DNA from: Clostridium sp. Marseille-P2415
GTDB taxonomy: Bacteria; Bacillota; Clostridia; Lachnospirales; Lachnospiraceae
Assembly (NCBI RefSeq): GCF_900155545.1
Contig: NZ_LT732525.1
Location: 669,260 to 733,259, forward strand
Reading direction: 5' to 3'
Length of the DNA stretch: 64,000 bases
Below are positions 16,408-33,934 of this stretch, piece after piece. Each line of letters opens with the position of its first letter. Within the stretch, counting starts at the first letter, position 1. The notes below the pieces were generated by a model that worked only from the letters and a program-made list of their open reading frames with translations, searched no databases and was not told where the DNA came from. The translations under genes were made by a program, and so were the position numbers.

Positions 16408-17280
16408 CTATGTATTTTGCTTTAAAAATTCATCAAACAGCCTGACCGCCTCATAATTTCTGTTATCCTCCCGGAAAGCCCCGTAGACATCCCATTTTAA
16501 CTTTTCCCGGAACGGAAGAGCCTTTACATGATCCAGACGGAAATCCTCCAGCACAAAGCCCGGTACCACTGCCAGCCCGAATTTCTGCAGGCACAGCTTA
16601 TAAAGGAAATTGGGGTCCGCGGTCTTCGCCACGATCCGGGGTTTAAAGCCTCTTATCAGGCACGCTTCGATAAAATCCTGAAACATGTGAAAATGCTCAT
16701 TCATCAGAATCAGGTTTTCATCCCTTACCTTATCAAAAGAAATCTGATCCAGTCCGTAAAACGGGTGGCCTTCATAAACCAGAAGATATATCTCCCGGCT
16801 CGCCAGCTTTCTCTGACTGATTCCAGGCTCCTTCCATTCTCCCACAATAACCCCATATTCCAGCTTGGAGTCCGCCACCCGTTCCTTTACCTCCTGGTTG
16901 GGATATTCGTTCCATTCCACCCGGATGCGGCTGTTTTCCTCCGTAAACCTCTGCACCAGACGAAAAGGAAGCACGTTAAAAACCCCGCACGCACATCCGA
17001 TCCGAAGGACGATCCCCCGGTTTTTCAATTGGCGGATTCCATTTTCCACCGCCTTAAACTGGCGGATCAATACTTCCGCCCTGTCATAGAGGAGACAGGC
17101 ACTTTCCGTCGGCTTTACGCCCTGCCTGGTCCTCTCGAACAGTACCGTATCCAGTTCCGTTTCCAGAGCCCTGATATTCTTACTGAGCCCCTGGGGCGTG
17201 ATAAATAATTTTTTAGCGGCCTGATTGATGCTGCGCTCTTCGTATACGGCCTTAAAGCTTTTTAAATCCTTTGTATTCAT
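16408..17280 (-). CDS. LysR-family transcriptional regulator
   Basis: 290 residues from the ATG at 17280, which has GGAG 8 bases upstream; the longer frame to 17409 runs into the PHP gene and lacks an RBS. The N-terminal winged helix is canonical: DLKSFKAVYEERSINQAAKKLFITPQGLSKNI (in two halves here, residues 4-35). The effector domain follows, with LRIGCACGVFNVLPFRLV. It lies between the PHP gene and the reductase on the same strand and probably regulates the latter; the ligand is unknown. Confidence 0.9.
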   Translation of the reverse strand: MNTKDLKSFKAVYEERSINQAAKKLFITPQGLSKNIRALETELDTVLFERTRQGVKPTESACLLYDRAEVLIRQFKAVENGIRQLKNRGIVLRIGCACGVFNVLPFRLVQRFTEENSRIRVEWNEYPNQEVKERVADSKLEYGVIVGEWKEPGISQRKLASREIYLLVYEGHPFYGLDQISFDKVRDENLILMNEHFHMFQDFIEACLIRGFKPRIVAKTADPNFLYKLCLQKFGLAVVPGFVLEDFRLDHVKALPFREKLKWDVYGAFREDNRNYEAVRLFDEFLKQNT

Positions 17281-17317
17281 AAAAATATCTCCAATCTTAA
17301 GCATATCCGGACACCAC

Positions 17318-18028
17318 CTATAAAAGTGCCCGGATGACTGCCTCCATGCTCTTTTCCTCCACTTCCATGAAAAGCCCCGGTTCCTGAATGTCCTCCAGGC
17401 AATGGGCATCGGAATTGCTTATGATCCGGCAGCCCTCCAGATAGGGATTCCTTCTCTTAAGCTCAGGAAGCCTGGTCAAATCCTTTACTTCCGCCGTGGT
17501 GAACCGGCTGCCGTCCGGCACAAAGCCCAGGTTCGAGATCAGGCTGTTGGCCGGCTTGTCGATATGGGCCGGAAACATGACTCCCCCATAAGACCGGACC
17601 AGCTCCCACAGCCCGTCAAAGGAGATATGGGCCCGGTTGATCAGAAGGTACGGCTCGGTCCCGCATACGGTATCTTCCTCATTATATATCTGCTGTTTCC
17701 CGAATATCTCTTCCTTATTGGGAAACAGCATCAGCCGCTGATAAACATATTCATCAAACTCCATGGCCTTTTTAAGCGCTGGAAAAAGACAAACCGCATG
17801 TACCTCTTCCGAGGTACAGATTTCCATTCCCGGCACGGCAAGCGCCCCGTACTTCTCTGCAAAATGCAGCACAGCCGGACAGTTTCTGCAGGAATTGTGA
17901 TCCGTGACCGCAATCACATCAAGCCCTTTTAAGGCTGCCATCCCCACAATATTGGCCGGTGTCATATCGTCATCCCCGCACGGTGACAAGCAGGAATGAA
18001 TGTGAAGATCATAAGTGAGATTCATCAT
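17318..18028 (-). CDS. PHP-domain phosphoesterase
   Basis: A 236-residue protein. The N-terminal motif DLHIHSCLSPCGDDD supplies the first metal-binding His pair of PHP phosphoesterases, VIAVTDHN the next, and ISNSDAHCLEDI the last Asp-His. It is metal-dependent, and its substrate is probably a nucleotide or phosphosugar; no polymerase domain is attached. It overlaps the upstream DRTGG gene by 20 bp, so it is part of the sensory hydrogenase operon. Its role in redox control there is unknown. Confidence 0.85.
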   Translation of the reverse strand: MMNLTYDLHIHSCLSPCGDDDMTPANIVGMAALKGLDVIAVTDHNSCRNCPAVLHFAEKYGALAVPGMEICTSEEVHAVCLFPALKKAMEFDEYVYQRLMLFPNKEEIFGKQQIYNEEDTVCGTEPYLLINRAHISFDGLWELVRSYGGVMFPAHIDKPANSLISNLGFVPDGSRFTTAEVKDLTRLPELKRRNPYLEGCRIISNSDAHCLEDIQEPGLFMEVEEKSMEAVIRALL

Positions 18029-18359
18029 GGTCCAGACTTTGATATACCAGAAGAGCTGCCTCGAAAACCGGCATTCCGGTTTTCAGAACCGTAATGTTCT
18101 GATCCTTTGCCTTTTTCACCGCCGCCTCATCGAGGGCACTCCCTTCCGCCATGATCACACAGGCTGCATCTGTAAGGGATGCCACTGCAAGGGTGTTCAT
18201 GTTTCCCATCACCGTTACCCATGCACAGCCTTCCGGTGCCTTTCCCATGGCAATGCTTAGCAGATCACAGCAAAATGGCTTCGTGATCTGCCGCGTAAGC
18301 CCCTCACCCACATTTACCACTTCAAAAAATCCACTGTCAATCAGTTTCCCTACCGTCAT
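18009..18359 (-). CDS. DRTGG-domain protein (second copy)
   Basis: 116 residues from the ATG at 18359, chosen for the RBS GGGAGG 7 bases upstream; the frame extends to 18386. MTVGKLIDSGFFEVVN then a strand-loop pattern with ITVLKTGMPVFEAA resembles the DRTGG domain seen between CBS and kinase domains. It overlaps the H-cluster protein upstream by 23 bp and PHP downstream by 20 bp, which indicates tight coupling. No enzymatic motif is visible; a ligand-sensing or adaptor role is likely. Confidence 0.6.
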   Translation of the reverse strand: MTVGKLIDSGFFEVVNVGEGLTRQITKPFCCDLLSIAMGKAPEGCAWVTVMGNMNTLAVASLTDAACVIMAEGSALDEAAVKKAKDQNITVLKTGMPVFEAALLVYQSLDHDESHL

Positions 18360-19749
18360 TTCGGTTCCTCCCATCCTTCCTGTCAAGCTGAGTCATTTCA
18401 TCGGAAATTCTCTGGATATATTTGGTCAGTACTTTAAATTTTTCATAACTTTCGCTGTCGCCCTCCACGATATCGGCGGCCAGCCTGGAAACCTCCTCCG
18501 ACAGCTTATGCACATTGTCCCTTAAGAAATAAACGCAGTCCGATTCTGCCGCTTCCCCCCGGACGATATCCTCCGCCAGAGCCTTGCAGGTGGGCGCCCC
18601 GCAGGAGCCGCAGTCTAATCCCGGAAGCTTTTTTAATAGCCGTTCCACCTGATTTAGGCGCGCAAAGCTTTCCATCATGGTCTCACCCAAATGGAACACC
18701 GGCTCATACCGGACTTCATCAGTCCATTTCACCAGCTCTTCCGCCTCCACCTGCATATGACTTCTCGCTACGGGCATGTACTTGCGCAGACGTTTTAGCT
18801 TTACTTCCGCTACATAGGGGTTCTCTACCGTGAGCACGCCTCCCACACAGCCGCCGTTGCAGGCGTTCAATTCCACAAACTTCAAATTTGTGAATTTCTG
18901 GTCCTCCATATCCTCCAGGACCCGGATCACATTTTCTATGCCATCCGCAGCCAGATAATCCTCGGTAAACAGGCCGCTGGCCTCCCCGCCGCTGCGCCCC
19001 CAGCTGATCCCGATCTTCCCGGAGGTCCCGATCTCAGGCGGGTCCTCCCCCACCGCCTTCATACAGGGAAGAAGCTGCGGATATAAATCCTTAATGGCAA
19101 GTACCTTATCCACTTCACTGTGTTCCGTCCCCAGCGGAGACCGGGCATAAGTCACCTTGGAAGGACAGGGAGAAATAAATATGATCCCGATTTTTTCCCT
19201 TTCAAATCCCGTCTTTTCCATAGCCCTTCTGGCTGCAAGGATGGCAGCTACCTCCACCGGAGGATTAAGGGGCAGTAAATTCGGAATCAGGTTTGGAAAC
19301 CTGACCCGTATGAGCCGCACCACAGAAGGACATGCCGTACTGATCGCCGGAAGCTTGTCCGGGTTTTCACTTAAATACTCCCTGGTCGCTTCACTTACCA
19401 GCTCTGCTGCCGCACTCACTTCAAATACATCATCAAACCCCATCATCAGAAGGGCATTTAAAACGATATTCACATCATCCAGATTGTTAAACTGGCTGTA
19501 CAGGGACGGCGCCGGTAAAGCTACCGTGTATTCATACTGCTTTAAATCCTCCAGCTTGTCATAGGTCGCATGCTTTGCGTGATGGGGACATACCCTGATG
19601 CACTCCCCACAGTCAATGCAGAACTTGCTGTTGATCTGTGCCTTCCCGTTTCTTACCCGGATGGCCTGAGTCGGGCAGCGCTTGATGCAATTGATGCATC
19701 CCATGCACAGCTCTTCATCAAGCCTCACGGAATGATAAAATTTATCCAC
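18337..19749 (-). CDS. Putative sensory [FeFe] hydrogenase-like protein (group D-like)
   Basis: 470 residues. Two 4Fe-4S motifs lead: CMGCINCIKRCP (15-26) and CIDCGECIRVCP (44-55). The H-cluster domain follows with altered motifs: ISTACPSV where catalytic enzymes have TSCCP, SPCPSK for L2, and NACNGGCVGG for L3. Near the C-terminus, LDCGSCGAPTCKALAEDI is a 4-Cys FeS domain, then a helical tail. The first L1 Cys (the proton-transfer one) is Ala, so turnover is doubtful; a sensor or redox relay is more likely. Neighbours (HATPase, DRTGG, PHP) support signalling. Confidence 0.82.
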   Translation of the reverse strand: MDKFYHSVRLDEELCMGCINCIKRCPTQAIRVRNGKAQINSKFCIDCGECIRVCPHHAKHATYDKLEDLKQYEYTVALPAPSLYSQFNNLDDVNIVLNALLMMGFDDVFEVSAAAELVSEATREYLSENPDKLPAISTACPSVVRLIRVRFPNLIPNLLPLNPPVEVAAILAARRAMEKTGFEREKIGIIFISPCPSKVTYARSPLGTEHSEVDKVLAIKDLYPQLLPCMKAVGEDPPEIGTSGKIGISWGRSGGEASGLFTEDYLAADGIENVIRVLEDMEDQKFTNLKFVELNACNGGCVGGVLTVENPYVAEVKLKRLRKYMPVARSHMQVEAEELVKWTDEVRYEPVFHLGETMMESFARLNQVERLLKKLPGLDCGSCGAPTCKALAEDIVRGEAAESDCVYFLRDNVHKLSEEVSRLAADIVEGDSESYEKFKVLTKYIQRISDEMTQLDRKDGRNRNDGRETD

Positions 19750-19817
19750 CTTCTCACCCCATTTGCCGCTAATTTGCCGCTATATATTTTGCAGCGCTTC
19801 CTGATATGGAAGGCGCT

Positions 19818-20240
19818 TTATAAGTACACTACCATGCGTATGGCCGTTCCCTTTCCTATTACCGTATCGATCTCCATCTCATCCGAATACTTCTTCATGT
19901 TCGGAAGCCCCATACCGGCTCCAAATCCCAGGGAACGCACTGCATCCGGGGCGGTGGAATATCCTTCCTGCATGGCTAAACCGATATCCGGTATTCCGGG
20001 CCCCACATCAGCCAGAAGCATCTCGATCCGGTCCGGTGTAATATTGACCGTGATCTCCCCGCCTTCCGCATGGATCACCATGTTTAACTCCCCCTCGTAC
20101 ATGGCAATGGCCGCCTTGCGGACCGCTTCCGGGCTGACCCCCATCTTTTTTAACTTGCTCTTAACATCGCTGCTGGCCTCTCCGGCCCTGGTAAAATCAT
20201 CCGGAGAGATCCTGTAATGATACGTTATCATATCCGCCAT
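19818..20240 (-). CDS. HATPase-type switch kinase (RsbW/anti-sigma-like)
   Basis: 140 residues. AAIAMYEGELNMVIHA is the N-box helix (Glu and Asn), ADVGPGIPD the G1 box and GFGAGMGLPNMKKY the ATP lid, as in serine kinases of the RsbW/SpoIIAB type. No phosphotransfer His or other domain is present. The start overlaps the stop of the upstream DRTGG gene by one base, and the H-cluster protein gene begins 68 bp downstream. It would phosphorylate a partner in response to the redox sensor; the partner is not identified. Confidence 0.85.
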   Translation of the reverse strand: MADMITYHYRISPDDFTRAGEASSDVKSKLKKMGVSPEAVRKAAIAMYEGELNMVIHAEGGEITVNITPDRIEMLLADVGPGIPDIGLAMQEGYSTAPDAVRSLGFGAGMGLPNMKKYSDEMEIDTVIGKGTAIRMVVYL

Positions 20241-20587
20241 CAGACCGCACCTCCACGAAGCCCTGCCTCATAGAGCATGCCGCAGGCTGAGAACATGCGG
20301 TGCCCTGTGGAAAGGATGATCAGATTCCGTTCCTCTGCCATCAGAAGCATGGCTTCATCCGGCTTCTTTCCCCTGACAAAAACAATGCAGACAATGTCTA
20401 ACATTTCCGCCGTGCGAATGACCTGGGGGTTGCACAAACCGGTAAGAAGAACCGAATGGTCTTTGGAAAATGCCAGCACATCGCTCATCATGTCAGAACC
20501 GCAGGCGCTTCTGACCTCATCATCCAGGTGGCTTTCCCCTGCCAGCACCCGGGCGCCCAGTATATCCCTCACATCTCTAGCTGTCAA
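20240..20587 (-). CDS. DRTGG-domain protein (first copy)
   Basis: About 115 residues from a TTG at 20587, which has AAAGGAGAG upstream; an ATG at 20632 in frame lacks an RBS. LTARDVRDILGARVLAG, then VLAFSKDHSVLLTGLCNPQVIRTAEML and NLIILSTGHRMFSACGML, fit the DRTGG fold. It is the first gene of the five-gene leftward operon DRTGG-HATPase-H-cluster protein-DRTGG-PHP and is divergent from the hydrogenase operon at 20797. The shared 210 bp upstream region may co-regulate both. Confidence 0.65.
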   Translation of the reverse strand: MTARDVRDILGARVLAGESHLDDEVRSACGSDMMSDVLAFSKDHSVLLTGLCNPQVIRTAEMLDIVCIVFVRGKKPDEAMLLMAEERNLIILSTGHRMFSACGMLYEAGLRGGAV

Positions 20588-20796
20588 AATACCACTCTCC
20601 TTTCCTCTATTCACTCTATTCACACAATTCATAACATTATTGATAATTATATCATAAATACAGCATCTGGTATAGAAATATTATACGAAATGTTTGTTAT
20701 TTTTTTGTCGAATTTTGATTAAAACTATAGATTTTTTCTCAATAACATGTTAAAATATCAGTACATTGCATAAGCAACATTTAAGGAGGTTATAAG

Positions 20797-21291
20797 ATGG
20801 CTTGTAAAAAACAAGGTGTCCGGTTTAACGGGACAAAAGAGCAGGAAGCCGCGTTAAAAGAAGCGGTCTCCCTGCTCAAAGACACAAAAGGATCTCTGAT
20901 GCCTATCATGCAGAAGGCACAGGAGATTTATGGTTATCTTCCAATCGAAGTCCAAACCATGATTTCTGATGAAACAGGTATACCGCTTGAGAAAATTTAT
21001 GGTGTTGCAACCTTTTATGCCCAGTTTGCACTTCAGCCAAAGGGTAAATATCAGATATCTGTTTGTCTGGGAACCGCCTGCTATGTGAAGGGTTCCGGAG
21101 ACATCTTCCATAAACTTGAGGAAATCCTTGGGATCACCAACGGAGAATGCACTCCGGATGGCAAGTACTCTCTTGATTCCTGCCGCTGTGTAGGTGCCTG
21201 CGGCCTTGCTCCCGTCATGATGGTGAACGGGGAAGTTTACGGAAGGCTGACGGCTGATGATGTTCCAGGCATTCTTGCCAAGTATGAATAA
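20797..21291 (+). CDS. hydC: NuoE-like [2Fe-2S] subunit of trimeric [FeFe] hydrogenase
   Basis: 164 residues. LMPIMQKAQEIYGYLP and YGVATFYAQF mark the helical N-half, and the thioredoxin-like [2Fe-2S] domain carries C-L-G-T-A-C and, later, C-R-C-V-G-A-C ligands. It is the HydC/HndA/NuoE subunit that, with the NuoF-like and HydA subunits, links NAD(H), ferredoxin and H2. RBS TAAGGAGG. It is the first gene of the rightward hydrogenase operon. Confidence 0.93.
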   Translation: MACKKQGVRFNGTKEQEAALKEAVSLLKDTKGSLMPIMQKAQEIYGYLPIEVQTMISDETGIPLEKIYGVATFYAQFALQPKGKYQISVCLGTACYVKGSGDIFHKLEEILGITNGECTPDGKYSLDSCRCVGACGLAPVMMVNGEVYGRLTADDVPGILAKYE

Positions 21292-21303
21292 CAAACCACG
21301 CTT

Positions 21304-21861
21304 ATGATGACAGAGATTTCTTTAAATATACTGGATATAGCAGAAAACTCCACGCGGGCAGGGGCATCCCTGGTTACCATTACCGTTTCTGTTGATACAT
21401 CCGCAGATAAGCTGACCGTCACCGTGAAAGATAATGGCTGCGGTATGACGGAAGAAGAAGTATCCCAGGTAACTGACCCGTTTTTTACCACGCGCAAGAC
21501 CAGAAAGGCAGGCCTTGGCATTCCGTTTTTCAAATATGCGGCGGAAAGCACAGGGGGGAGTTTTTCCATTGAGTCAGAACCAGGCATAGGAACGGCAGTA
21601 ACCGCTGTTTTCGGACTGTCACACATTGACCGCATGCCTCTCGGTGATATGAACAGCACCATCGAGACGCTGATCACCTGCCATCCGGTTACAGATTTTC
21701 TCTATATATACCGTTATGATAAAGCGTCCTTTGAGCTTGATACCAGAGATTTCCGCGAAATTTTAGGGGACATCCCCTTTGACACGCCGGAGGTATCGGC
21801 TTACATAAAGGAATTCTTAAGTGAGAACAAATTGGAAACAGATGGAGGCGCGGCCATTTAG
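21304..21861 (+). CDS. HATPase-domain protein in the hydrogenase operon
   Basis: 185 residues. LNILDIAENSTRAGA is the N box, VKDNGCGMTEEE the G1 box and TRKAGLGIPFFKYAAE the ATP lid of a GHKL ATPase. There is no dimerisation/phosphoacceptor His domain; the last 70 residues are unassigned. There is no clear RBS before the ATG at 21304, so translation may depend on hydC, 12 bp upstream. Such an ATPase between hydC and hydB is common in clostridial hydrogenase operons, and its role is not known; a protein kinase or switch function is inferred. Confidence 0.85.
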   Translation: MMTEISLNILDIAENSTRAGASLVTITVSVDTSADKLTVTVKDNGCGMTEEEVSQVTDPFFTTRKTRKAGLGIPFFKYAAESTGGSFSIESEPGIGTAVTAVFGLSHIDRMPLGDMNSTIETLITCHPVTDFLYIYRYDKASFELDTRDFREILGDIPFDTPEVSAYIKEFLSENKLETDGGAAI

Positions 21862-21885
21862 GCCCGTTAGAATTGGAGGAATAAC

Positions 21886-22263
21886 ATGAAGACTCTTGAA
21901 GAATTAAAAGTAATTCGGGAAAAGATGCAGAGTCAGGTCAGCATGCGGGGAGAAGATCATGCGCGTACCCGCGTCCTGGTCGGCATGGCTACATGCGGAA
22001 TTGCCAGCGGTGCAAGACCTGTTCTTAATAAATTGTCAACCCTGGTTCAGGAAAACCATATGACGGACCGTTTTTCCGTTACCCAGACCGGCTGTATCGG
22101 CTTATGCCAGTATGAGCCAATCGTTGAGATCCTGGAACCCGGAAGAGAAAAAGTAACTTATATCAAGATGACCCCGGAAAAGGCAGAAGAAGTTTACAAA
22201 GAGCATTTACTGGGCGGTCACATTGTTCAAAACTACACATTAGCTTCAGCTGACATCAAATAA
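21886..22263 (+). CDS. Thioredoxin-like [2Fe-2S] ferredoxin
   Basis: 125 residues. RVLVGMATCGIASGARPVL and QTGCIGLCQYEP give the four Cys ligands (C-x(4)-type then C-x3-C) of a thioredoxin-fold [2Fe-2S] domain. It resembles the N-terminal domain of NuoF-like HydB, as if that domain also exists free. RBS GGAGGAATAAC. It lies 12 bp upstream of hydB and probably acts as an electron carrier to the complex. Confidence 0.88.
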   Translation: MKTLEELKVIREKMQSQVSMRGEDHARTRVLVGMATCGIASGARPVLNKLSTLVQENHMTDRFSVTQTGCIGLCQYEPIVEILEPGREKVTYIKMTPEKAEEVYKEHLLGGHIVQNYTLASADIK

Positions 22264-22275
22264 GGAGGAAACAAG

Positions 22276-24063
22276 ATGTATCGTTCACATGTATTAGTTT
22301 GCGGCGGCACGGGATGCACTTCCTCCGGAAGCCAGCAGATTATGGTTAAATTAAGAGATGAGTTAAAAAAACAGGGTCTGGCTGATGAAGTATCAGTGGT
22401 ACAGACCGGCTGCCATGGTCTTTGTGCATTAGGCCCGATCATGATCGTTTATCCGGATGCGGCCTTCTATGCCATGGTAAAGGAAGAAGATATTCCTGAA
22501 ATCGTATCCGAGCACTTATTAAAAGGACGTCCGGTGGAAAGACTGTTATATGATGAGACAGTGACTCCGGCTGGGATCAAGTCCTTAAGTGATACGGATT
22601 TCTATAAGAAACAGCACCGGATCGCTCTCCGCAACTGCGGTGTCATCAATCCGGAGGTGATTGAAGAGTACATTGGGACCGGCGGATATCAGGCACTTGG
22701 CAAAGTCCTTACCGAGATGACTCCTGACGAGGTGATCCAGGTTCTTTTAGACAGCGGATTAAGAGGACGGGGCGGCGCAGGCTTCCCAACCGGCCTTAAA
22801 TGGAAGCTGGCAAAGCAGAATGATGCGGACCAGAAGTATGTCTGCTGTAATGCGGATGAAGGTGACCCGGGAGCATTCATGGACCGTTCCGTTCTGGAAG
22901 GCGATCCTCATGCACTTCTGGAGGCCATGACCATCGCAGGTTACGCCATCGGCGCTTCCCAGGGTTACATTTACGTACGTGCAGAGTACCCCATTGCCGT
23001 ACAGCGTTTAAAAATCGCTATCGACCAGGCAAGAGAGATGGAGCTCTTAGGCGGCGATATTTTCGGGAGCGGCTTCTCCTTTAACATTGATCTGCGTTTG
23101 GGTGCAGGCGCATTCGTATGCGGCGAAGAAACTGCCCTCATGGTTTCCATCGAAGGCAACCGCGGTGAACCAAGGCCACGTCCTCCGTTCCCGGCACAGA
23201 AAGGTCTGTTCGGCAAGCCAACCATATTAAATAACGTTGAAACTTATGCAAATATCCCTCAGATCATCTTAAACGGCCCGGAATGGTTTGCTTCCATGGG
23301 TACTGAGAAATCCAAGGGAACCAAAGTGTTCGCTTTAGGCGGAAAGATCCACAACACAGGACTTGTGGAAGTTCCGATGGGAACGACCCTGCGTGAGATT
23401 ATTGAAGAAATCGGCGGCGGCATTCCAAACGGCAAAAAATTCAAAGCGGCTCAGACCGGCGGCCCATCCGGCGGATGCATCCCGACTGAACACTATGACA
23501 TTCCGATCGATTATGATAACCTGATCGCCATCGGCTCCATGATGGGATCCGGCGGTCTGATCGTTATGGATGAAACCGACTGTATGGTGGATATCGCGAA
23601 ATTCTTCCTGGAATTCACCGTAGAGGAATCCTGCGGGAAATGTACGCCATGCCGGATCGGTACAAAACGCATGCTGGAAATTCTTGATAAGATCACAAAA
23701 GGGCAGGCGAAGCTGGAAGATTTAGACCGTCTGGAAGAGCTGTGCTACTACGTAAAGGCAAACTCTGCCTGCGGCCTTGGCCAGACAGCCCCAAACCCGG
23801 TTCTGTCAACCCTTAAGTTCTTCCGTGACGAATACAATGCCCACATTATTGATAAGACATGTCCGGCAGGTGTATGCAAGGCACTGCTTTCCTATCATAT
23901 TGATGCGGAGAAGTGTAAGGGATGTACGCTCTGTGCCAGAAACTGTCCGGCTAACGCAATCTCCGGTTCTGTTAAGAACCCGCACGTCATTGATCCGGAA
24001 AAGTGTATCAAATGCGGCGTATGCATGGAGAAATGTAAATTTGGCGCTGTCTACAAGAAATAA
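22276..24063 (+). CDS. hydB: NuoF-like NADH/flavin subunit of trimeric [FeFe] hydrogenase
   Basis: 595 residues. N-terminal thioredoxin-like [2Fe-2S] domain (CGGTGCTSSGS, QTGCHGLCALGP). The NADH/FMN domain follows: GLRGRGGAGFPTGLKW (FMN), YVCCNADEGDPGAFMDR, GAGAYVCGEETAL-like GAGAFVCGEETAL. ESCGKCTPCRIGT with a later Cys binds the N3-type 4Fe-4S. The C-terminus has two 4Fe-4S motifs (CKGCTLCARNCP, CIKCGVCMEKC). The stop lies 17 bp before the hydA start. It is the NAD(H) site of a bifurcating or NADH-dependent hydrogenase. Confidence 0.96.
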   Translation: MYRSHVLVCGGTGCTSSGSQQIMVKLRDELKKQGLADEVSVVQTGCHGLCALGPIMIVYPDAAFYAMVKEEDIPEIVSEHLLKGRPVERLLYDETVTPAGIKSLSDTDFYKKQHRIALRNCGVINPEVIEEYIGTGGYQALGKVLTEMTPDEVIQVLLDSGLRGRGGAGFPTGLKWKLAKQNDADQKYVCCNADEGDPGAFMDRSVLEGDPHALLEAMTIAGYAIGASQGYIYVRAEYPIAVQRLKIAIDQAREMELLGGDIFGSGFSFNIDLRLGAGAFVCGEETALMVSIEGNRGEPRPRPPFPAQKGLFGKPTILNNVETYANIPQIILNGPEWFASMGTEKSKGTKVFALGGKIHNTGLVEVPMGTTLREIIEEIGGGIPNGKKFKAAQTGGPSGGCIPTEHYDIPIDYDNLIAIGSMMGSGGLIVMDETDCMVDIAKFFLEFTVEESCGKCTPCRIGTKRMLEILDKITKGQAKLEDLDRLEELCYYVKANSACGLGQTAPNPVLSTLKFFRDEYNAHIIDKTCPAGVCKALLSYHIDAEKCKGCTLCARNCPANAISGSVKNPHVIDPEKCIKCGVCMEKCKFGAVYKK

Positions 24064-24080
24064 TGGAGGGAGATTGTATC

Positions 24081-25826
24081 ATGGAGAATATCACAATTAA
24101 AATCAATGGCATGGACGTAAGCGCTCCGGCAGGCTCCACCATTCTGGAAGCTGCCAGGCTTGCCCATGTCGAGATACCAACTTTATGCTTTTTAAAAGAC
24201 ATCAATGAAATTGCCGCCTGCCGCATCTGTACCGTTGAAATTAACGGAGGCAGACTGGCCGCTTCCTGTGTATACCCCATTAATCCGGGTATGGAGGTAT
24301 GGACCAATACACCGAAGCTTCGTGAATACAGAAAGAAAACGCTTCAGCTGATCCTGTCCAATCATGACCGTTCCTGCTTGTCCTGCGTACGCAGCGGAAA
24401 CTGTGAATTGCAGACCCTATGCAAGGAGCTGGGGGTTGATGCGGATGATTATTATGACGGCGATAAGACACCTTCCACCCTTGACGAAAGCGCAGCCCAT
24501 ATGGTACGTGATAACAGCAAGTGCATCCTGTGCCGCCGCTGCTCCGCTGTCTGTGAAAGGGTTCAGGGCATTGGCGTTATCGGACCGAACGAGCGCGGTT
24601 TCGCCACCTTTATCGGCTCCGCCTTTGACATGGGCCTTGGTGAAACAAGCTGTGTATCCTGCGGACAGTGTATCGCAGTCTGCCCGACCGGTGCGCTCTA
24701 TGAGAAGAGCAGCATCGATGAGGTAGCTGCCTTAATCGCAGATCCGGCCAAGCACGTGATCGTTCAGACCGCTCCTGCTGTCCGCGCAGGCCTTGGCGAA
24801 GAATTCGGCTATCCGATCGGAACCAATGTGGAAGGCAGGATGGTGGCCGCCCTCAGAAGACTTGGTTTTGACAAAGTATTTGATACCAATTTCAGTGCCG
24901 ATTTAACCATTATGGAAGAGGCACACGAATTCATTGGCCGTGTACAAAACGGCGGCGTTCTTCCGATGATCACCTCCTGTTCTCCAGGATGGATCAAATA
25001 CTGCGAACACTACTTCCCGGATATGACAGAGAACTTATCCTCCTGCAAATCCCCCCAGCAGATGTTCGGCGCCATCGCCAAATCCTATTATGCGGATAAG
25101 ATGGGCTTAAAACCGGAGGATATCGTATCCGTCAGCGTGATGCCATGTACCGCTAAAAAATTCGAGATCGGAAGAGACGACCAGGATGCCAACGGTGTTC
25201 CGGATGTAGACTATTCCCTGACCACCAGAGAGTTAGCCAGGATGATCAAGCAGGCCGGTATCAAGTTTACAGAACTTCCGGATGAAGATTTTGATGCTCC
25301 GTTGGGACTTGGCACCGGTGCCGCTGTCATCTTCGGCACCACCGGAGGTGTCATGGAAGCAGCCTTAAGAACCGCTGTGGAAAGCCTGACCGGAGAAGAG
25401 CTTAAAAAGCCTGACTTTACCGATGTACGGGGGACAGAAGGAATTAAAGAAGCCACCTACCATGTGGGTGATATGGATGTGAACGTAGCGGTTGCTTCGG
25501 GTCTTGGAAATGCAAGAGAACTCCTTAACCGCGTAAAATCCGGAGAAGCCAATTATCACTTCATTGAGATCATGGGATGTCCCGGCGGCTGTGTAAACGG
25601 CGGCGGTCAGCCTCAGCAGCCAGGTTTCGTGCGCAATACGACCGATATCCGCGCCCTGCGTGCCAAGGTTCTTTACGATGTGGATGCTGCAAAGACCATC
25701 CGCAAGTCTCATGAGAATCCGGCTATTAAGGAATTGTATGAGACCTATCTTGGAGAGCCTGGCAGTGAAAAGGCTCATCATCTGCTGCATACAACCTATG
25801 TAAAGAGAAAAATCAACCAAATCTAA
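24081..25826 (+). CDS. hydA: Catalytic [FeFe] hydrogenase subunit HydA (group A)
   Basis: 581 residues from the ATG at 24081 (RBS GGAGGGAG). Domains in order: plant-type [2Fe-2S] (PTLCF, CRICTV, C); His/Cys-ligated 4Fe-4S (HDRSCLSCVRSGNCELQ); two 4Fe-4S motifs (CILCRRCSAVCE, CVSCGQCIAVCP); H-cluster domain with L1 TSCSPGW, L2 MPCTAKKFE and L3 EIMGCPGGCVNGGGQP; then the small C-terminal domain. It makes or oxidises H2 in the cytosol as part of HydABC. L1 has Ser where most enzymes have the second Cys. A terminator follows at 25835. Confidence 0.97.
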   Translation: MENITIKINGMDVSAPAGSTILEAARLAHVEIPTLCFLKDINEIAACRICTVEINGGRLAASCVYPINPGMEVWTNTPKLREYRKKTLQLILSNHDRSCLSCVRSGNCELQTLCKELGVDADDYYDGDKTPSTLDESAAHMVRDNSKCILCRRCSAVCERVQGIGVIGPNERGFATFIGSAFDMGLGETSCVSCGQCIAVCPTGALYEKSSIDEVAALIADPAKHVIVQTAPAVRAGLGEEFGYPIGTNVEGRMVAALRRLGFDKVFDTNFSADLTIMEEAHEFIGRVQNGGVLPMITSCSPGWIKYCEHYFPDMTENLSSCKSPQQMFGAIAKSYYADKMGLKPEDIVSVSVMPCTAKKFEIGRDDQDANGVPDVDYSLTTRELARMIKQAGIKFTELPDEDFDAPLGLGTGAAVIFGTTGGVMEAALRTAVESLTGEELKKPDFTDVRGTEGIKEATYHVGDMDVNVAVASGLGNARELLNRVKSGEANYHFIEIMGCPGGCVNGGGQPQQPGFVRNTTDIRALRAKVLYDVDAAKTIRKSHENPAIKELYETYLGEPGSEKAHHLLHTTYVKRKINQI

Positions 25827-25834
25827 CCTTTCTG

Positions 25835-25871
25835 AAACTCCTTCTGTTTTTTAAGCAGAGGGAGTTTTTTT
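25835..25871 (+). terminator. Terminator of the hydrogenase operon
   Basis: AAACTCC-TTCTG pairs with CAGAGGGAGTTT, followed by a T-run ending at about 25871. Confidence 0.8.
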
Positions 25872-25929
25872 CCTGCCCTATGCATGAATTACCAGAAAAT
25901 CTCCATACTATGACTGGAGGTGATGAAAC

Positions 25930-26103
25930 ATGAGCCCAAAGGAATTAAATTATATCGAAGATGCTCTTGGCCATGAAAATTTTTTAAAAACTCAGTGTCA
26001 GGAAGCGGTACAGAACCTGCAGGATCCTGAATTAAAGGCTTGCGCACAGCAGCTTTTGGATAAGCACCAGCAGATTTTTGACAGCTTCTATAACTTAGTG
26101 TAA
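25930..26103 (+). CDS. Small spore coat-like protein (CotF family, helical)
   Basis: 57 residues from the ATG at 25930, with RBS GGAGGTGA. KELNYIEDALGHENFLKTQC and ELKACAQQLLDKHQQIF form the two-helix pattern of short clostridial CotF-like coat proteins. It is followed 13 bp later by a second CotF-like gene on the same strand; together they look like one coat operon. It probably assembles into the spore coat; no enzyme motif is present. Confidence 0.75.
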   Translation: MSPKELNYIEDALGHENFLKTQCQEAVQNLQDPELKACAQQLLDKHQQIFDSFYNLV

Positions 26104-26116
26104 GGAGGAATCATAT

Positions 26117-26362
26117 ATGGATGACAAAAGTATTATGGAAAATCTGCTCAACACTGCCAAAGGAGCGTGTGACTTATATCTGCATGGAACCATTGAATCC
26201 CCTACCATGGACGTGCATCAGGCTTTTGATAACGCATTAAATGACAACCTGTGCATGGAGGACGATATTTTTAAAAAAATGTCCGCAAAGGGATGGTACA
26301 CCACAGAGAAGGCAGAGCAGAAGAAAATCGACAAGGTAAGAAGCCAGTTTTCCGGAATGTAA
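26117..26362 (+). CDS. CotF-like spore coat protein
   Basis: 81 residues; RBS TAAGGAGGAATC. LLNTAKGACDLYLHGTIESP and HQAFDNALNDNLCMEDDIFKKM (in two parts) followed by KGWYTTEKAEQKKI are hallmarks of the CotF domain. It is the second gene of a two-gene coat unit inserted between two hydrogenase operons, and ends at a bidirectional terminator. Expression is expected in sporulation, but I did not identify a sigma-E/K promoter with confidence. Confidence 0.88.
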   Translation: MDDKSIMENLLNTAKGACDLYLHGTIESPTMDVHQAFDNALNDNLCMEDDIFKKMSAKGWYTTEKAEQKKIDKVRSQFSGM

Positions 26363-26363
26363 C

Positions 26364-26412
26364 AAAAAGCTATGGGAGGTTCTCAAAAAAGGACCGGCCC
26401 ATAGCTTTTTAT
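26364..26412. terminator. Bidirectional terminator between coat and group B hydrogenase genes
   Basis: AAAAAGCTATGGG pairs with CCCATAGCTTTTT around a 20-base loop, with A- and T-runs on both sides. Confidence 0.85.
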
Positions 26413-26434
26413 TCTTTTCCGTTCATAATAAAAT

Positions 26435-27886
26435 TTAATGTCTGTGCATCGGCACTTCCTGCAGATCCTGATTCTTTAAGTTCTCGTGAACTTCCCTTGC
26501 GTCCGCCTGGCTGATCAGTAAGTCACGGGCTCTTTTTGCCTCGCTCTCACTCTTATGCTTGCTTGGACCGCCTACACAGCCTCCCACACATGCCATGCCT
26601 TCTATAAAGTCCGCAGGAAGCTTACCGACTTTAAGAAGCATCAGCGCCTTCTTGCACTCTGCCGCCCCATTGCACTTCATGACTTCAATATCCGTGTTTT
26701 CTCCGGATTCTTTTAAACATTCCAGGACAGCTGCGGTCACACCACCTCCATTTCCGAAACGTTTTCCAAACACAGAACCTGCCTGGTAAGTATTCTCCTC
26801 CGGCTCCAGTTCCACCCCATTTGCCACCATCATGGCATGGGCTTCTCCCAGAGTCAGGACATAATCCGCATTATCCTTAATGTTTAAATCCAGAGTCTCG
26901 CTCTTCTTGGCAATACACGGGCCGATGAAAACGCTGATGGTCTCGGGATCTTTTTCCTTTAACATTCTGGATACCGCGCACATGGGGGAAACGGTTGTGG
27001 ACATATTCTCAAGCAGAGCAGGATAATGCTGTTTGATCATGTTAACAAATGCCGGACAGCAGGAAGTTGTCATCTTCTTGCCTTCCCGATAAGCTTCCGC
27101 CCATTCCGCGGCTTCTGCAGCAGCGGTCAGATCACCGCCTAAAGCCACCTCAACCATATCTGCGAAACCGATTTTCTTTAAAGCCGTTCTCCAGCTTGCC
27201 ATGGTAATTTCCGGACCGTACTGGCCTTCAATCGCCGGAGCGACCATGGCAACTACCTTTTTCCCGGCTTTGATCAGGTTTATCACATCCACCAGAAATG
27301 TCTTAGAACCAATGGCTCCAAATGGGCAGCTATGGATGCAGGCTCCGCACTGGATGCACTTACTCTCATCAATGACAACAATGCTGTTTTCATCCATTGT
27401 AATCGCATCCACCGGGCAGCTCTTCTTGCATGGACGTGTTAAGTCCGCAATGGCGTTGTAAGGGCATGCCTGGGAACATTTTCCGCATTCCTTGCACTTA
27501 TCCGGATCAATATGGGCACGGTCATGGCCCATGCTTATCGCTCCGAAATGGCAGGAATTCTGGCATGCCTTGCCCATACAGAGCTGGCAGTTATCCGTTA
27601 CCACATAACGGGCAATGGGACAGCCTTCACAGGCTGAACTGATCACCTGAACCACGTTTGTAGTATCTTTCCCGCTCGGACAAAATCCTTCCGCAAGCCG
27701 GACTCTCTCCCGGATGATCTCCCTTTCCCTGTAAATGCAGCAGCGGAACTGGGCCTTTGGGCCTGGAATGATATTATAAGGGATCTCATTCCTCTTTTCT
27801 TCCAGTCTACCTTCCCAGGCAAGCTTCGCCACTTCATACAAAACCTGATGCTTTATGCGAAGTAATGTTGCATCATTTGTTACCAT
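26435..27886 (-). CDS. [FeFe] hydrogenase, group B-like
   Basis: 483 residues from the ATG at 27886 (RBS GAGGAGG); the frame runs to 27937 without an RBS. The N-terminal part has CEGCPIARY-type and CQLCMGKACQNSC Cys clusters, then 4Fe-4S motifs CKECGKCSQACP and CIQCGACIHSCP. H-cluster motifs: L1 TTSCCPAF, L2 GPCIAKKSE, L3 GMACVGGCVGGPS. This pattern is that of monomeric group B hydrogenases, often ferredoxin-dependent; activity is poorly known. It is the last gene of the operon with the phosphatase and the PAS-linked sensor. Confidence 0.92.
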   Translation of the reverse strand: MVTNDATLLRIKHQVLYEVAKLAWEGRLEEKRNEIPYNIIPGPKAQFRCCIYREREIIRERVRLAEGFCPSGKDTTNVVQVISSACEGCPIARYVVTDNCQLCMGKACQNSCHFGAISMGHDRAHIDPDKCKECGKCSQACPYNAIADLTRPCKKSCPVDAITMDENSIVVIDESKCIQCGACIHSCPFGAIGSKTFLVDVINLIKAGKKVVAMVAPAIEGQYGPEITMASWRTALKKIGFADMVEVALGGDLTAAAEAAEWAEAYREGKKMTTSCCPAFVNMIKQHYPALLENMSTTVSPMCAVSRMLKEKDPETISVFIGPCIAKKSETLDLNIKDNADYVLTLGEAHAMMVANGVELEPEENTYQAGSVFGKRFGNGGGVTAAVLECLKESGENTDIEVMKCNGAAECKKALMLLKVGKLPADFIEGMACVGGCVGGPSKHKSESEAKRARDLLISQADAREVHENLKNQDLQEVPMHRH

Positions 27887-27941
27887 AATTTTCCTCCTCG
27901 TAACTTCCACTTGCGTGGCTGTGTGAATATCTGTCATGAAT

Positions 27942-29126
27942 TTAATAATAAGTTACTGTAACTTTCTTTCCCATTTCTTCCACCGCGTGCTTTAACTGCT
28001 CCACAAGATTCTGCCGGATTCCTAAATCAAAGGGCAGACCGGGATTCTGATAGGCACTGTTGATGGCTTTTCCAACATATAAATTCAGCTCCGTACAATC
28101 CTCAATGATCATCTTGGCTGCCATGGAAGCGCCGTTCTGTTTATCCAGTTCCAGGAAAAAATCCTCCGTGACCGACTCATTTCTTACATAACGCCTTAAA
28201 AGCTGCAGCACCCTGTTTAAGGTCAGAACCCCTTCCGTGACCAGTTCAATGCCGTCAATATAGGCAATCGGGGGGAGGTCCGGGTCATTGTAATCCAGAG
28301 AAACGGAAAGCTTCTTACCGGTTATTCTGGAAACAATATTGGCACTTGTTCCTCCGCAGACGATCCTCTTGGCGGTATCATCTCCCAACAGAAAATCCTC
28401 CACCATGGTTTTATCATCATCCGGATTCCTGGGGGGGCCTGTCATCAAATGCACCGGCTTCTGGTCAATGATCCGCATGACCGACACAGTGGTATCGTCA
28501 CCGGGACGGTACTGATAAAGCTCATCGCAGGCGCGGCTTAAGGAAGAAGCCAGACGTGCCGCGGATATGGTCAGGCGGTACTGCTTTACCGCATAGGAAG
28601 CAACGTCTTCCCACAGCCAGCCAAAGTTTAACAGCTGTCCCACCCCTGCATGAATGGTTCCGTCGCTCATGAGAATCAGCGCATCCCCTTTTTTCACCTG
28701 AAAGCGGTACTCATTGATCTTTTTATCCCGGATGATCCTGGTGTTCTGAGGTATGGGAACCAGCTCCCCGTTCCGGATAAAGATGCAGCCGGGATTATCA
28801 AATTCCACCAGATAAGCATCGCCATTGTTAAACACCTGCAGGATGCTGAAGGTTGAATAAGCCACCTGGCGCACCTGGCATACCGGAAGGGTCTCTACGA
28901 TGGTTTCCACACATTCCTCCAGGGTCGCACCGTTTAGAAACATAGTTCCCAGAATCTTGGAGGTCATGGTCGCCAGAATATTCGCCTTTACCCCGCTTCC
29001 CATGCCGTCTGCAAGAATCATAATATTGGAATTTTCCGTTTGCAAAAGCTCTACCTTGTCGCCGCACAGGACTTCATTGAATTTATTCAGGCTTTTGTAT
29101 GCAACGTCTACTGTAACTCCCATCAC
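27942..29126 (-). CDS. SpoIIE-type PP2C serine phosphatase
   Basis: 394 residues. ILADGMGSGVKANILA and ALILMSDGTIHAGVG carry the metal-binding Asp/Gly of the SpoIIE/RsbU phosphatase fold, and GDDTTVSVMRI the last Asp motif. A further domain of about 150 residues (from about 245) is not assigned. It overlaps the stop of the sensory hydrogenase by 4 bp. The known partner logic (phosphatase versus HATPase kinase) suggests it reverses phosphorylation set by the HATPase proteins at 19818 or 21304; that pairing is inference. Confidence 0.9.
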   Translation of the reverse strand: MMGVTVDVAYKSLNKFNEVLCGDKVELLQTENSNIMILADGMGSGVKANILATMTSKILGTMFLNGATLEECVETIVETLPVCQVRQVAYSTFSILQVFNNGDAYLVEFDNPGCIFIRNGELVPIPQNTRIIRDKKINEYRFQVKKGDALILMSDGTIHAGVGQLLNFGWLWEDVASYAVKQYRLTISAARLASSLSRACDELYQYRPGDDTTVSVMRIIDQKPVHLMTGPPRNPDDDKTMVEDFLLGDDTAKRIVCGGTSANIVSRITGKKLSVSLDYNDPDLPPIAYIDGIELVTEGVLTLNRVLQLLRRYVRNESVTEDFFLELDKQNGASMAAKMIIEDCTELNLYVGKAINSAYQNPGLPFDLGIRQNLVEQLKHAVEEMGKKVTVTYY

Positions 29127-30856
29127 TTGACCTCGCTTTCGCTTCCCTCATCCAATAAGGATCTGCAAAGCTTTGTTAAGGTGGTCTTGGTCTCCGCCGT
29201 CGTTTCTCCCAGAAGGCCGGCAATCTCCTGGGCTACCATCATCTGCTTGTGAATGACCTTCTGCGCCAGATCAATGGTTTCCAGCTTCTTTTCGTATTCC
29301 TGCTTTGCCTGCTCTTCTTCCTTTGTGATATCGATGAAGGTAGCCAGCACCACATCTTCTTTCTCAATGTAAACAATATTCTGCAGGGTGGAAAAACGGT
29401 ATTCCCCATAAGTCACCTTTTTTCCATGGATCTTCTGATGGGAATCATATACCCACTGAAAATCAGAAGGGTCGATGAATTCATATAAATACATGCTTAA
29501 AGCTTCCTGCCTGGTTTTTCCAAAGTACTTTTCCCCCACTGCGGAATACTCCAGAATTTTCATATCTTTATCCACGATCAAAACAATGTTCGGAGAAGTT
29601 TCCATTACAAGATTTGATAAGGATTCCGCTTTTTCATGCATAAACGGAATGCACATGTTAAGTTCCGCCTTTTTCTGGAAAACCGCAATGGCCTTTTCCC
29701 GGCATGTGGAATAACCGCAGGCACCGCAGTTCAATTCGTCCTCCGGCTTGGTCTTTCCGGTCTTTTTTAATATTTCCTGAACCTGGACTTCTGTTGGCAT
29801 GATGTCCCTGGGGGAACGGTCCAAAAACCGTTTACGGAACGATATCCGCCTGATAACAGGCTCCACCTCTTCCCCTGGAACTGCTTCTTTTTCAATGGTT
29901 TCCTCCATATCCAGCTTCACCTTGAATCTGGATACGTTTTCATCATCCACAGTAGGCCCCTTGATACAGCCGCCGGAGCACATATTCATCTCGATGAAGC
30001 AGCCCTGAATCCCTCCCCTCAGCATGCTTTCACACAGATCCATGCAATTGCGGCAGCCATGGACATAAAATTTCCGGTAACTGTCCCGTTCCTCTTCCGT
30101 GGCAAGAACAGAATTCACAACCCCGTTTGTAACCGGGTAAAGCCGGTTGATCCTGGGGTTTATATTGGTAAACGGAATATCCTCGCAATCCTCAATGGTG
30201 ATCTCTTCTTCAGAAAGCCACCTGGAAATGTCATTGAAATTGAGGACCGCATCAATATAGCCCTCATGACGGATATCTCCGGCTTCTTTTTTCTTTGCAA
30301 TGCACGGGCCCAGAAATACCACCTTCACATCCGGACCCAGTTCTTCCTTTAACATCTTTCCATGGGCGATCATAGGGGATACCACAGGGGCCATATAAGG
30401 AATCAGCTGGGGATAATAGATCTCAATCAAGTCATTAACGCTGGGACAGCAGGTGGTGATGATGTTCTCCATCTCCCCTTCCTTAAGGAGCCTGGCATAT
30501 TCCGCTGTTACCACAGCCGCACCTTCCGATGTCTCACGGACGTCGGCAAAGCCCAGCTTCCGGAGCGCCGCATTCACCTGACCGATGGTTTTATATTTTA
30601 ACAGGCCCATATAGGATGGGGCCAGGGAAATGACCGTCCGGAGCCCATCATCAATATAGCCTTTGACCAGTTCCAGATCACTGATCAGGGTTTTGGCCGA
30701 CTGGGGACATACCTGCATGCATTTTCCGCATAAAATGCATTTATCCGGCATGATTTCAGCCCGTTCGTCTTTAATCATGACCGCCTTGACTTCACAGTTA
30801 CGGACACATTTATAGCAGTGCTTGCATTTGGTAGCCTTGAAATCAATGATCCCCAT
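29123..30856 (-). CDS. Sensory [FeFe] hydrogenase with PAS domain (group C, HydS-like)
   Basis: 577 residues. Two 4Fe-4S motifs (CKHCYKCVRNCE, CILCGKCMQVCP), then an H-cluster domain with L1 TTCCPSV, L2 LGPCIAKKKE and L3 MNMCSGGCIKGP. Next is a 4-Cys FeS domain (LNCGACGYSTCREKA) and a PAS domain (LVMETSPNIVLIVDKD...EYSAVGEKYFGKTR), and a helical C-terminus. Group C proteins are proposed H2 sensors. It starts 2 bp after the 2Fe-2S gene and overlaps the SpoIIE phosphatase, so H2 sensing probably controls dephosphorylation. Confidence 0.93.
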   Translation of the reverse strand: MGIIDFKATKCKHCYKCVRNCEVKAVMIKDERAEIMPDKCILCGKCMQVCPQSAKTLISDLELVKGYIDDGLRTVISLAPSYMGLLKYKTIGQVNAALRKLGFADVRETSEGAAVVTAEYARLLKEGEMENIITTCCPSVNDLIEIYYPQLIPYMAPVVSPMIAHGKMLKEELGPDVKVVFLGPCIAKKKEAGDIRHEGYIDAVLNFNDISRWLSEEEITIEDCEDIPFTNINPRINRLYPVTNGVVNSVLATEEERDSYRKFYVHGCRNCMDLCESMLRGGIQGCFIEMNMCSGGCIKGPTVDDENVSRFKVKLDMEETIEKEAVPGEEVEPVIRRISFRKRFLDRSPRDIMPTEVQVQEILKKTGKTKPEDELNCGACGYSTCREKAIAVFQKKAELNMCIPFMHEKAESLSNLVMETSPNIVLIVDKDMKILEYSAVGEKYFGKTRQEALSMYLYEFIDPSDFQWVYDSHQKIHGKKVTYGEYRFSTLQNIVYIEKEDVVLATFIDITKEEEQAKQEYEKKLETIDLAQKVIHKQMMVAQEIAGLLGETTAETKTTLTKLCRSLLDEGSESEVK

Positions 30857-30858
30857 GA

Positions 30859-31098
30859 TTACAGCCTCCCCATAATTTCTTTATCAAAAAACTCCTTTGT
30901 ATCTTCTGGTTTTAAAGAATAGATCTGGCCATCCACGGTTACGCAGACACCATTGACACAGTTGCCGCTGCAGAAGGAACCATTCAAATCCACGTTATCT
31001 TCCAGGTGGTTCTCTTTTACAAGCGTCTGCAGCCGGGCTATGATCTCTCTGGAGCCCTTTAAATGGCATGCACTTCCGATACATATTGTTACTCTCAT
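30859..31098 (-). CDS. Thioredoxin-like [2Fe-2S] protein
   Basis: 79 residues from the ATG at 31098, with RBS TTGGAGGGAG; a longer frame to 31152 lacks one. VTICIGSACHLKGS and NGSFCSGNCVNGVCV give the Cys ligands of a NuoE-C-terminal-like [2Fe-2S] domain. It is the first gene of the operon that continues into the group C sensor (2 bp gap). It probably passes electrons to or from the sensor. Confidence 0.85.
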   Translation of the reverse strand: MRVTICIGSACHLKGSREIIARLQTLVKENHLEDNVDLNGSFCSGNCVNGVCVTVDGQIYSLKPEDTKEFFDKEIMGRL

Positions 31099-31168
31099 GA
31101 ATATTCTCCCTCCAAATTTCGTACCTTGCTCTTGATTGCCCTTTTTGAACATTATCGCATGTCGTTAT

Positions 31169-32959: not shown

Positions 32960-32975
32960 AAGAAACATCCCCCTT

Positions 32976-33806
32976 CTACTTTCCGGCAAGCTTTGTAATG
33001 GAAGCCGTAATCAGCTTTTTAAACAGCGGTGCGACCCGGTCTGCAGTCTCCTGCACTTCCGTATGGCTTAAAGGCTGCTCCGTTATGCCGCAGGCCATAT
33101 TGGTGATACAGGAAATACCGCATACCTTCATTCCCATATGGTTTGCCGCAACCGCCTCACAGGCTGTGCTCATTCCCACTGCATCAGCTCCCAGAATGCG
33201 GCACATCCGGACCTCTGACGGGGATTCATATGCCGGACCGGAAAGCTGCATGTAAACGCCCTCTCTAAGACCGATTCCTTCTTTCCCCGCGGCATCCCGG
33301 ATGATCTGCTGCAGTTCCTTACCGTAGACATCACTCATATCCGGGAATCTGGGGCCCAGTTCTTCCAAATTTGCCCCGATTAACGGAGATGGAACAAAGC
33401 TTGCGATATGATCCTTTATAAGCATGAAATCTCCTGGCTCAAAGTCCTTATTAACCCCGCCGGAGGCATTGGTCAGGAACAGTATCTTCGCCCCCATAAG
33501 TCCCATCAGTCTGGCCGGAAGCACCACATCAGTCATTGGATATCCCTCATAATAATGCACGCGGCCCTGCATGATCACCACCGGAACCTGATTTACATAT
33601 CCGAAAATAAATCTGCCCTTGTGGCCGGCAACCGTTGATACAGGAAAGCCTTCAATGTCTTTATAATCAATGGCAGCGGACACTTCGATCTCCTCTGCAT
33701 ATTCCCCAAGGCCAGACCCAAGAACCAGGGCTACTTCCGGGACAAAATCAGTTTTCTCCCTAACGCTTTTCAAACAGTTCTGCAGCTTTTCATATACTTC
33801 ATTCAT
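32976..33806 (-). CDS. punA: Purine nucleoside phosphorylase (trimeric type)
   Basis: 276 residues. VALVLGSGLGEYAEEI is the phosphate-binding start, VAGHKGRFIFG and MQGRVHYYEGY follow, and LTNASGGVN and GMSTACEAVAANHMGM complete the PNP family I low-molecular-mass (PunA) signature. It releases the base and ribose 1-phosphate from inosine and guanosine. It is the first gene of punA-ade, divergent from the ABC transporter at 34081. Confidence 0.95.
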   Translation of the reverse strand: MNEVYEKLQNCLKSVREKTDFVPEVALVLGSGLGEYAEEIEVSAAIDYKDIEGFPVSTVAGHKGRFIFGYVNQVPVVIMQGRVHYYEGYPMTDVVLPARLMGLMGAKILFLTNASGGVNKDFEPGDFMLIKDHIASFVPSPLIGANLEELGPRFPDMSDVYGKELQQIIRDAAGKEGIGLREGVYMQLSGPAYESPSEVRMCRILGADAVGMSTACEAVAANHMGMKVCGISCITNMACGITEQPLSHTEVQETADRVAPLFKKLITASITKLAGK

Positions 33807-33860
33807 ATGCCTTTTTTCTCCCTTCCAATTTCTATCGGTGTTACCAGTATATCATATTTT

Positions 33861-33895
33861 CAGATATATCTGTATCTATATTTATCTGCATCTAT
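33861..33895. repeat. Palindrome and 16-bp tandem repeats in the punA/ABC divergent region
   Basis: CAGATATATCTG (33861-33872) is a perfect palindrome. ATATATCTGTATCTAT (33864-33879) and ATTTATCTGCATCTAT (33880-33895) are tandem copies differing at two bases. The position between divergent promoters suggests a regulator site; no regulator is identified. Confidence 0.5.
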
Positions 33896-33898
33896 ATT

Positions 33899-33928: not shown

Positions 33929-33934
33929 GAAGCT

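Follow-up and report, generated by a model that had tools for sequence, protein, structure and literature searches.

A stretch of 64,000 nucleotides from Clostridium sp. Marseille-P2415 (contig NZ_LT732525.1, positions 669,260–733,259), here called the window, contains an operon for a trimeric HydABC-type hydrogenase that is flanked by two independent signalling units. The unit on its left is a module of five genes, encoding a DRTGG protein (dA), a SpoIIAB-like HATPase that is a putative serine kinase (h1), a group D (M2e-type) H-cluster protein that is a putative H2 or redox sensor (D), a second DRTGG protein (dB) and a PHP-domain phosphoesterase (PHP). This module is a recurrent, co-inherited and little-studied set, and a second HATPase gene (h2), which lies inside the hydrogenase operon, belongs with it. 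The module probably reads hydrogen or redox state. The unit on the right is a known operon of the hfsABCD type, encoding a 2Fe-2S protein, HydS, a phosphatase and a group B hydrogenase.

A recurrent gene set around the group D protein

The left operon runs on the minus strand from dA to PHP (17318–20632), with intergenic gaps of −50 to +68 bp. Its first gene is dA (20240–20632, with a probable start at 20587), followed by h1 (19818–20240), D (18337–19749), dB (18009–18386, probable start 18359) and PHP (17318–18028). A preliminary description of this DNA, which treated the hydrogenase genes and their neighbours as one island, had correct coordinates and omitted PHP, the gene into which the left operon extends.

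Gene order was compared in 81 loci – the window and 80 others fetched at one per genus, drawn from the 97 genera with a match (own genus included), with matches far from contig ends preferred. Genes on the same strand as D and within 6 kb of it were counted. By this measure dA is beside D in 77 of the loci, h1 in 78, dB in 78 and PHP in 76; L063, L067, L074, L099, L117, L129 and L132 each lack one or more of these genes, and the contig of L099 ends at D. The preliminary description had named chance co-occurrence as the finding that would speak against it, and with 76–78 of 81 loci the left set is clear of that objection, while the adjacency of the left and right units is only local.

The same association was found by presence and absence in 291 genomes of the class, the kinship of the sampled genomes being resolved only to same class or same phylum. 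Presence was called by E-value threshold (≤1e-40 for group D, ≤1e-15 for h1), and some absences stem from incomplete genomes. Group D passed in 140 genomes, or 138 after two weak matches were dropped, and h1 was present in 139. Both were present in 136 genomes, group D only in two (G049, G084), h1 only in three (G132, G196, G226) and neither in 150. At 132 of 141 places in these genomes, h1 lies no more than 3 kb from D.

The h2 gene follows the module and not the hydrogenase. It was found in 132 of the 135 genomes that have both HydB and group D, as against 14 of the 98 that have HydB but not group D. In some loci the whole module lies inside the hydrogenase operon, in the order E-dA-h1-D-dB-PHP-h2-f-F-A (L062, L071 and L112, for example), and h2 directly follows PHP in L077, L078, L079, L087, L229 and L230. 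In one further locus a second, divergent copy of h1 stands directly after PHP (L166:9077-9538).

Fusions link the parts of the module into pairs: dA with h1, D with dB, PHP with h2, and CBS domains with h1. They were found among 39 loci from other classes, a fortieth region (L284, 200 bases) having been left out; the first 20 were chosen mostly for long h1 frames, so the counts are not estimates of fusion frequency. The dA and h1 proteins are fused in eight of these loci (L257, L258, L259, L260, L262, L263, L265, L271), PHP and h2 in two (L277, L279) and D and dB in one (L291). Ten loci have CBS domains fused to h1 (L256, L264, L266–L270, L272, L273, L275), all confirmed by Pfam, as one stretch in L264 and two in the others. 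Pfam also confirmed DRTGG in L263 and L291 and both PHP and HATPase in L279, and did not report DRTGG in L271; the remaining dA-h1 fusions and L277 rest on profiles built in this analysis.

The CBS-h1 loci differ from the rest in how often they have D. D is absent from seven of the ten and from none of the other 29 (p=8e-6, indicative only, as the loci were chosen; in L262 and L288 group D is split over two frames and was scored as present). The simplest reading is that the input is exchangeable, either group D or CBS. Downstream of dA and CBS-h1, L266 has genes for a 2Fe-2S protein and RnfC; RnfC-like neighbours at other loci were judged by length only.

Sequence features of the module proteins

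The D protein (Fe_hyd_lg_C, 101.4 bits, plus an FeS domain) has the features described for group D (M2e). It has no PAS domain, its L1 and L2 motifs are STACP and SPCPSK, the cysteine motif is CGSCGAPTC-x16-C (Cx2Cx4Cx16C), the proton-transfer cysteine is replaced, a hydroxyl residue stands in place of M353, and a trimeric group A hydrogenase adjoins it. In the published description, cited like the other papers here from excerpts, group D lacks PAS, carries Cx2Cx4Cx16C, has lost the proton-transfer cysteine – not conserved in M2e and M2f enzymes – and has serine at the M353 place (PMC8163306). The closest named relative of D is a protein of Lacrimispora amygdalina (89%).

Group D proteins have been described as adjoining kinases and trimeric hydrogenases and classed as sensory (PMC3561251, PMC3492117, PMC8163306), an example being Cthe_0335 beside Cthe_0340-0342 (PMC3561251); the sensory role is a proposal (PMC8163306). 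The nearest described case is HydS of T. mathranii, also group D (M2e), which shares the motif traits; beside it are a group A hydrogenase of the trimeric kind and an ATPase resembling a histidine kinase. The excerpts of that paper name only the ATPase and an AraC regulator as its neighbours (PMC8163306), whereas here dA, h1, dB, PHP and h2 are added, together with their co-inheritance and fusions.

Both small partner proteins belong to the DRTGG family, dA by Pfam and fold and dB by profile and model. The Pfam DRTGG score of dA is just over the cut-off of 25.2 (26.9) and that of dB is under it (18.1), but dB aligns with dA (hhalign probability 98.2, E 4.7e-14), and the predicted structures have an identical order of elements (pLDDT 95.2 for dB). 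Across 234 DRTGG domains of both paralogues one serine is invariant (234/234), with a threonine in 233 and an aspartate in 231, and in both the dA and dB models the serine is at the start of a predicted helix, 34–40.

Neither h1 (HATPase_c_2, 38.3 bits, cut-off 27.4) nor h2 (HATPase_c, 62.3 bits) had any other Pfam domain reported at E≤0.01. The nearest solved chains to h1 are SpoIIAB (E 2e-6), and its residues E49 and N53 are kept in 125 of 125 sequences. In PHP (29.3 bits, cut-off 26.4) the candidate ligand residues H9, H11, D43, H44, E69, H77, H155, D207 and H209 are unchanged wherever the residue is present (110–112 sequences).

A proposed switch and its alternatives

The reading we favour, with a probability of about 0.45, is that the left module is a serine-phosphorylation switch that reads H2 or redox state, in which DRTGG proteins replace STAS proteins and which acts on HydABC or Rnf. 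The group D protein would read H2 or redox state and pass the signal to dB, to which it is fused in one locus. The h1 protein, paired with dA, would phosphorylate the invariant serine at the helix start of the DRTGG proteins. PHP, paired with h2, would remove the phosphate or turn over a small signal or ligand. The switch would then tune the neighbouring HydABC (or Rnf), the enzyme linking ferredoxin, NAD(H) and H2. Among the 25 largest neighbour clusters (those in at least 5 of the 81 loci), no STAS protein, response regulator or sigma factor was seen by eye, and the enzymes next to the set belong to a single redox node. Together these points favour a direct, post-translational output as the probable one.

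Several observations weigh against this reading. H2 sensing by D and kinase activity of h1 are predictions from sequence rather than from biochemistry. The core has no D next to it in L229, L230, L231 and seven of the CBS-h1 loci, while L117 and L129 have D by itself; 14 genomes, one of them of the same genus (G243), have h2 but not D, and D was found in only two of ten genomes of the window's own family. The h1 protein falls under the NCBIfam cut-offs for SpoIIAB (54.7 against 135) and RsbW (22.7 against 145), and phmmer aligns it to SpoIIAB with the N box out of register, so that the catalytic roles assigned to it rest on knowledge of the family. As aligned, AF_1212 has a glutamine at the serine position; serines lie two residues before it and one after, which makes the alignment register uncertain. 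The invariant serine, with its aspartate, threonine and asparagine, could equally line a ligand pocket.

That last point leads to the main alternative, which we consider somewhat unlikely: the DRTGG proteins would be sensors of a ligand, adenine nucleotide or another small molecule, and not phosphoacceptors, h1 and h2 would be ATP-driven switches or kinases of another target, and the module would combine energy charge with H2 or redox state. DRTGG does sit in the regulatory insert of CBS-pyrophosphatases, which share with the module the DRTGG fold and a CBS partner, but in those enzymes the nucleotides bind the CBS domains (PMC10742508). In contrast to the CBS-DRTGG pyrophosphatases, the DRTGG proteins here are stand-alone or fused to the ATPase, have no pyrophosphatase domain and carry an Asp-x-x-Ser pattern. 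The fusion of a SpoIIAB-like kinase to a small partner fits a pair of kinase and substrate, or of kinase and scaffold, and so speaks against this alternative.

A good deal less probable is a role of the module in assembling, repairing or maturing HydABC, with the GHKL ATPases as chaperones and no signalling switch at all. Its frequent position beside or inside the hydrogenase operon would suit such a role, as would the presence of HydB in 135 of the 138 genomes with group D. However, 98 of the 233 genomes with HydB are without group D, the CBS-h1 fusions suggest a regulatory input, and at L266 dA and CBS-h1 precede a 2Fe-2S protein and RnfC.

The phosphorylation switch, if it is one, would resemble partner switching and the stressosome (SpoIIAB, RsbW or RsbT with STAS proteins and a PP2C phosphatase) in its SpoIIAB-like ATPase, its small partners with one invariant serine, and its two paralogous partners, one of which is fused to the sensor in L291. 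It would differ from them in that the partners are DRTGG and not STAS proteins, that the candidate phosphatase is PHP and not PP2C, and that neither a sigma factor nor STAS was seen among the recurrent neighbours. The module as found does not fit a stressosome of the RsbR/RsbS/RsbT kind, as the scaffold of two STAS paralogues is missing and the paralogues are DRTGG. Whether it represents a class of its own, a 'stressosome without STAS', is doubtful: two DRTGG paralogues, each with the invariant serine at a helix start, would partner a SpoIIAB/RsbT-like kinase, PHP would replace PP2C, the sensor would be exchangeable (group D or a CBS pair), and HydABC and Rnf would be tuned directly in many genomes of the phylum.

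The right operon and the window as a whole

The right operon (26435–31152, minus strand, intergenic gaps of −4 to +4 bp) begins with a thioredoxin-like 2Fe-2S protein (30859–31152; 2Fe-2S_thioredx, 31.6 bits), followed by HydS (hfsB-like, group C type; 29123–30856; H-cluster, FeS and PAS), a SpoIIE/PP2C-type phosphatase (hfsC-like; 27942–29126; SpoIIE, 56.2 bits) and a group B hydrogenase (hfsD-like; 26435–27937; Fe_hyd_lg_C, and TIGR04105 at 609.3 bits, cut-off 450). Content and order are those of hfsABCD of Thermoanaerobacterium (PMC11837493, PMC5707799), and L240, L241 and L247 have the same order. HydS with PAS directly next to the PP2C phosphatase also fits the phosphatase-linked group C3 of the HydDB classification of [FeFe] hydrogenases (PMC5037454). 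No essential difference from the hfs systems was seen; the adjacency to a group D module is a local arrangement.

HydS probably senses H2 or redox state and would act through its PAS domain on the phosphatase. Its link to a phosphatase is already in print (PMC5037454, PMC5707799). The HydS of the window keeps both L1 cysteines (TTCCP), although the proton-transfer cysteine is described as not conserved in M2e and M2f enzymes (PMC8163306); a HydS that is tied to a phosphatase may thus be unlike that of T. maritima. In Thermoanaerobacterium, deletion of hfsA or hfsB gave a higher ethanol yield and more adhE expression, and high ethanol yield required hfsC and hfsD (PMC5707799, PMC11837493).

Between the two units, the hydrogenase operon is on the plus strand. 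It encodes a HydC/NuoE-type 2Fe-2S subunit (20797–21291; 2Fe-2S_thioredx, 168.9 bits), h2 (21304–21861), a thioredoxin-like 2Fe-2S protein (21886–22263; 2Fe-2S_thioredx, 27.1 bits), the HydB/NuoF subunit (22276–24063; Complex1_51K, NADH_4Fe-4S and SLBB) and the catalytic subunit HydA (24063–25826; Fe_hyd_lg_C, 341.5 bits; NF040763 group A6, 904.6 bits, cut-off 765). The three Hyd subunits in one operon make this a group A trimeric hydrogenase of the HydABC type. The HydC and dA genes are divergent and 164 bp apart, and promoter-like sites in the gap point both ways, in numbers near chance (three found, 1.6 expected).

The gene inventory of the preliminary description – four H-cluster proteins, two HATPases, a SpoIIE-type phosphatase, two DRTGG proteins and two free 2Fe-2S proteins in 13 kb – was confirmed by Pfam together with the profile alignment of dA and dB. 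Fe_hyd_lg_C was found in HydA, the group B protein, HydS and the group D protein. Five H-cluster proteins were found in the genome; the fifth, outside the window (G000:C8:782438-783145, locus L002), is closest to the group B protein of the window. It also stands that sensor, switch-kinase and phosphatase genes lie beside the hydrogenases and probably read H2 or redox state. The idea of a single island, governed by one partner switch that would have the HATPases and the phosphatase act on a shared substrate, is not supported.

Such an island-wide switch is very improbable: the genes are neighbours in the window and at L092 dA has a related phosphatase of the hfsC type 40 bp upstream, on its own strand, but that is the only one of 80 loci outside the window with this phosphatase near the module, 11 of 12 surveyed loci with the phosphatase have HydS next to it (exception L246) whereas the HATPases go with the group D, DRTGG and PHP set, and the phosphatase is found in 46 of 138 genomes with D and 37 of 153 without, a difference that is not significant (Fisher p=0.09, n=291). 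Neither HydS nor group B was found near the module in any of the 80 one-per-genus loci (9 kb limit). A second set, this time of 80 closer relatives, has three loci in which HydS or group B was labelled in the vicinity of the module (L139, L160, L167). Because the phosphatase, HydS and group B are so rarely near the module in other loci, and the phosphatase has no significant tie to D, the whole island is best seen as a local arrangement.

In two of those relatives HydS and HydA are close neighbours on one strand, 9 bp apart in L167 and 814 bp apart in L160, which means that sensors of groups C and D come together at the hydrogenase in other Lachnospiraceae too. In the same-genus genome G243 the hfs operon adjoins hydABC, and neither group D (E≤1e-40) nor h1 (E≤1e-15) was found.

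The preliminary description saw no STAS partner in the window and proposed a search of the genome for one. That search (PF01740, PF13466) found no dedicated partner, only a SpoIIAA-like protein, encoded beside a SpoIIAB-like gene, and a SulP sulphate permease, so classical partner switching is unsupported. As a candidate system it was set aside on two counts, the missing dedicated STAS substrate and the missing cognate PP2C phosphatase.

HydA is separated from the group B gene, which converges on it, by a small gene of the Coat_F (spore-coat) type (26117–26362). On the left is a LysR regulator (16408–17409, minus strand; its listed start overlaps PHP by 92 bp), which comes next to an NADH:flavin oxidoreductase with a pyridine-nucleotide disulphide reductase half, of the old-yellow-enzyme/enoate-reductase type (14313–16304). 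To the right of the hfs operon (31187–36585) are an adenine deaminase, a purine nucleoside phosphorylase-type gene and an NMT1/THI5-type ABC transporter.

A sensory role for group D close to kinases has already been put forward in the literature, while the full anatomy of the module was, as far as seen, not found there; a search for DRTGG with hydrogenase, with subscription papers outside its scope, found no paper with DRTGG. As far as seen, what is apparently new is the complete gene set and the fact that it is inherited together with h2 and independently of the PP2C phosphatase; the fusions of four kinds, the exchange of the sensor and the serine that never varies are new in the same sense. 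The results also correct a natural misreading, in which adjoining HATPase and SpoIIE genes are here taken as one partner switch.

How group D sensory hydrogenases relay their signal has been called an open question (PMC8163306), and the fusions and co-inheritance name their likely partners – dB, dA, h1, PHP and h2 – and one candidate residue. Of 291 genomes of the class 138 have group D, and of 398 in a sample of the phylum 169 have h1, so anaerobic fermenters, biofuel strains included, could commonly control H2 and electron flow through this switch.

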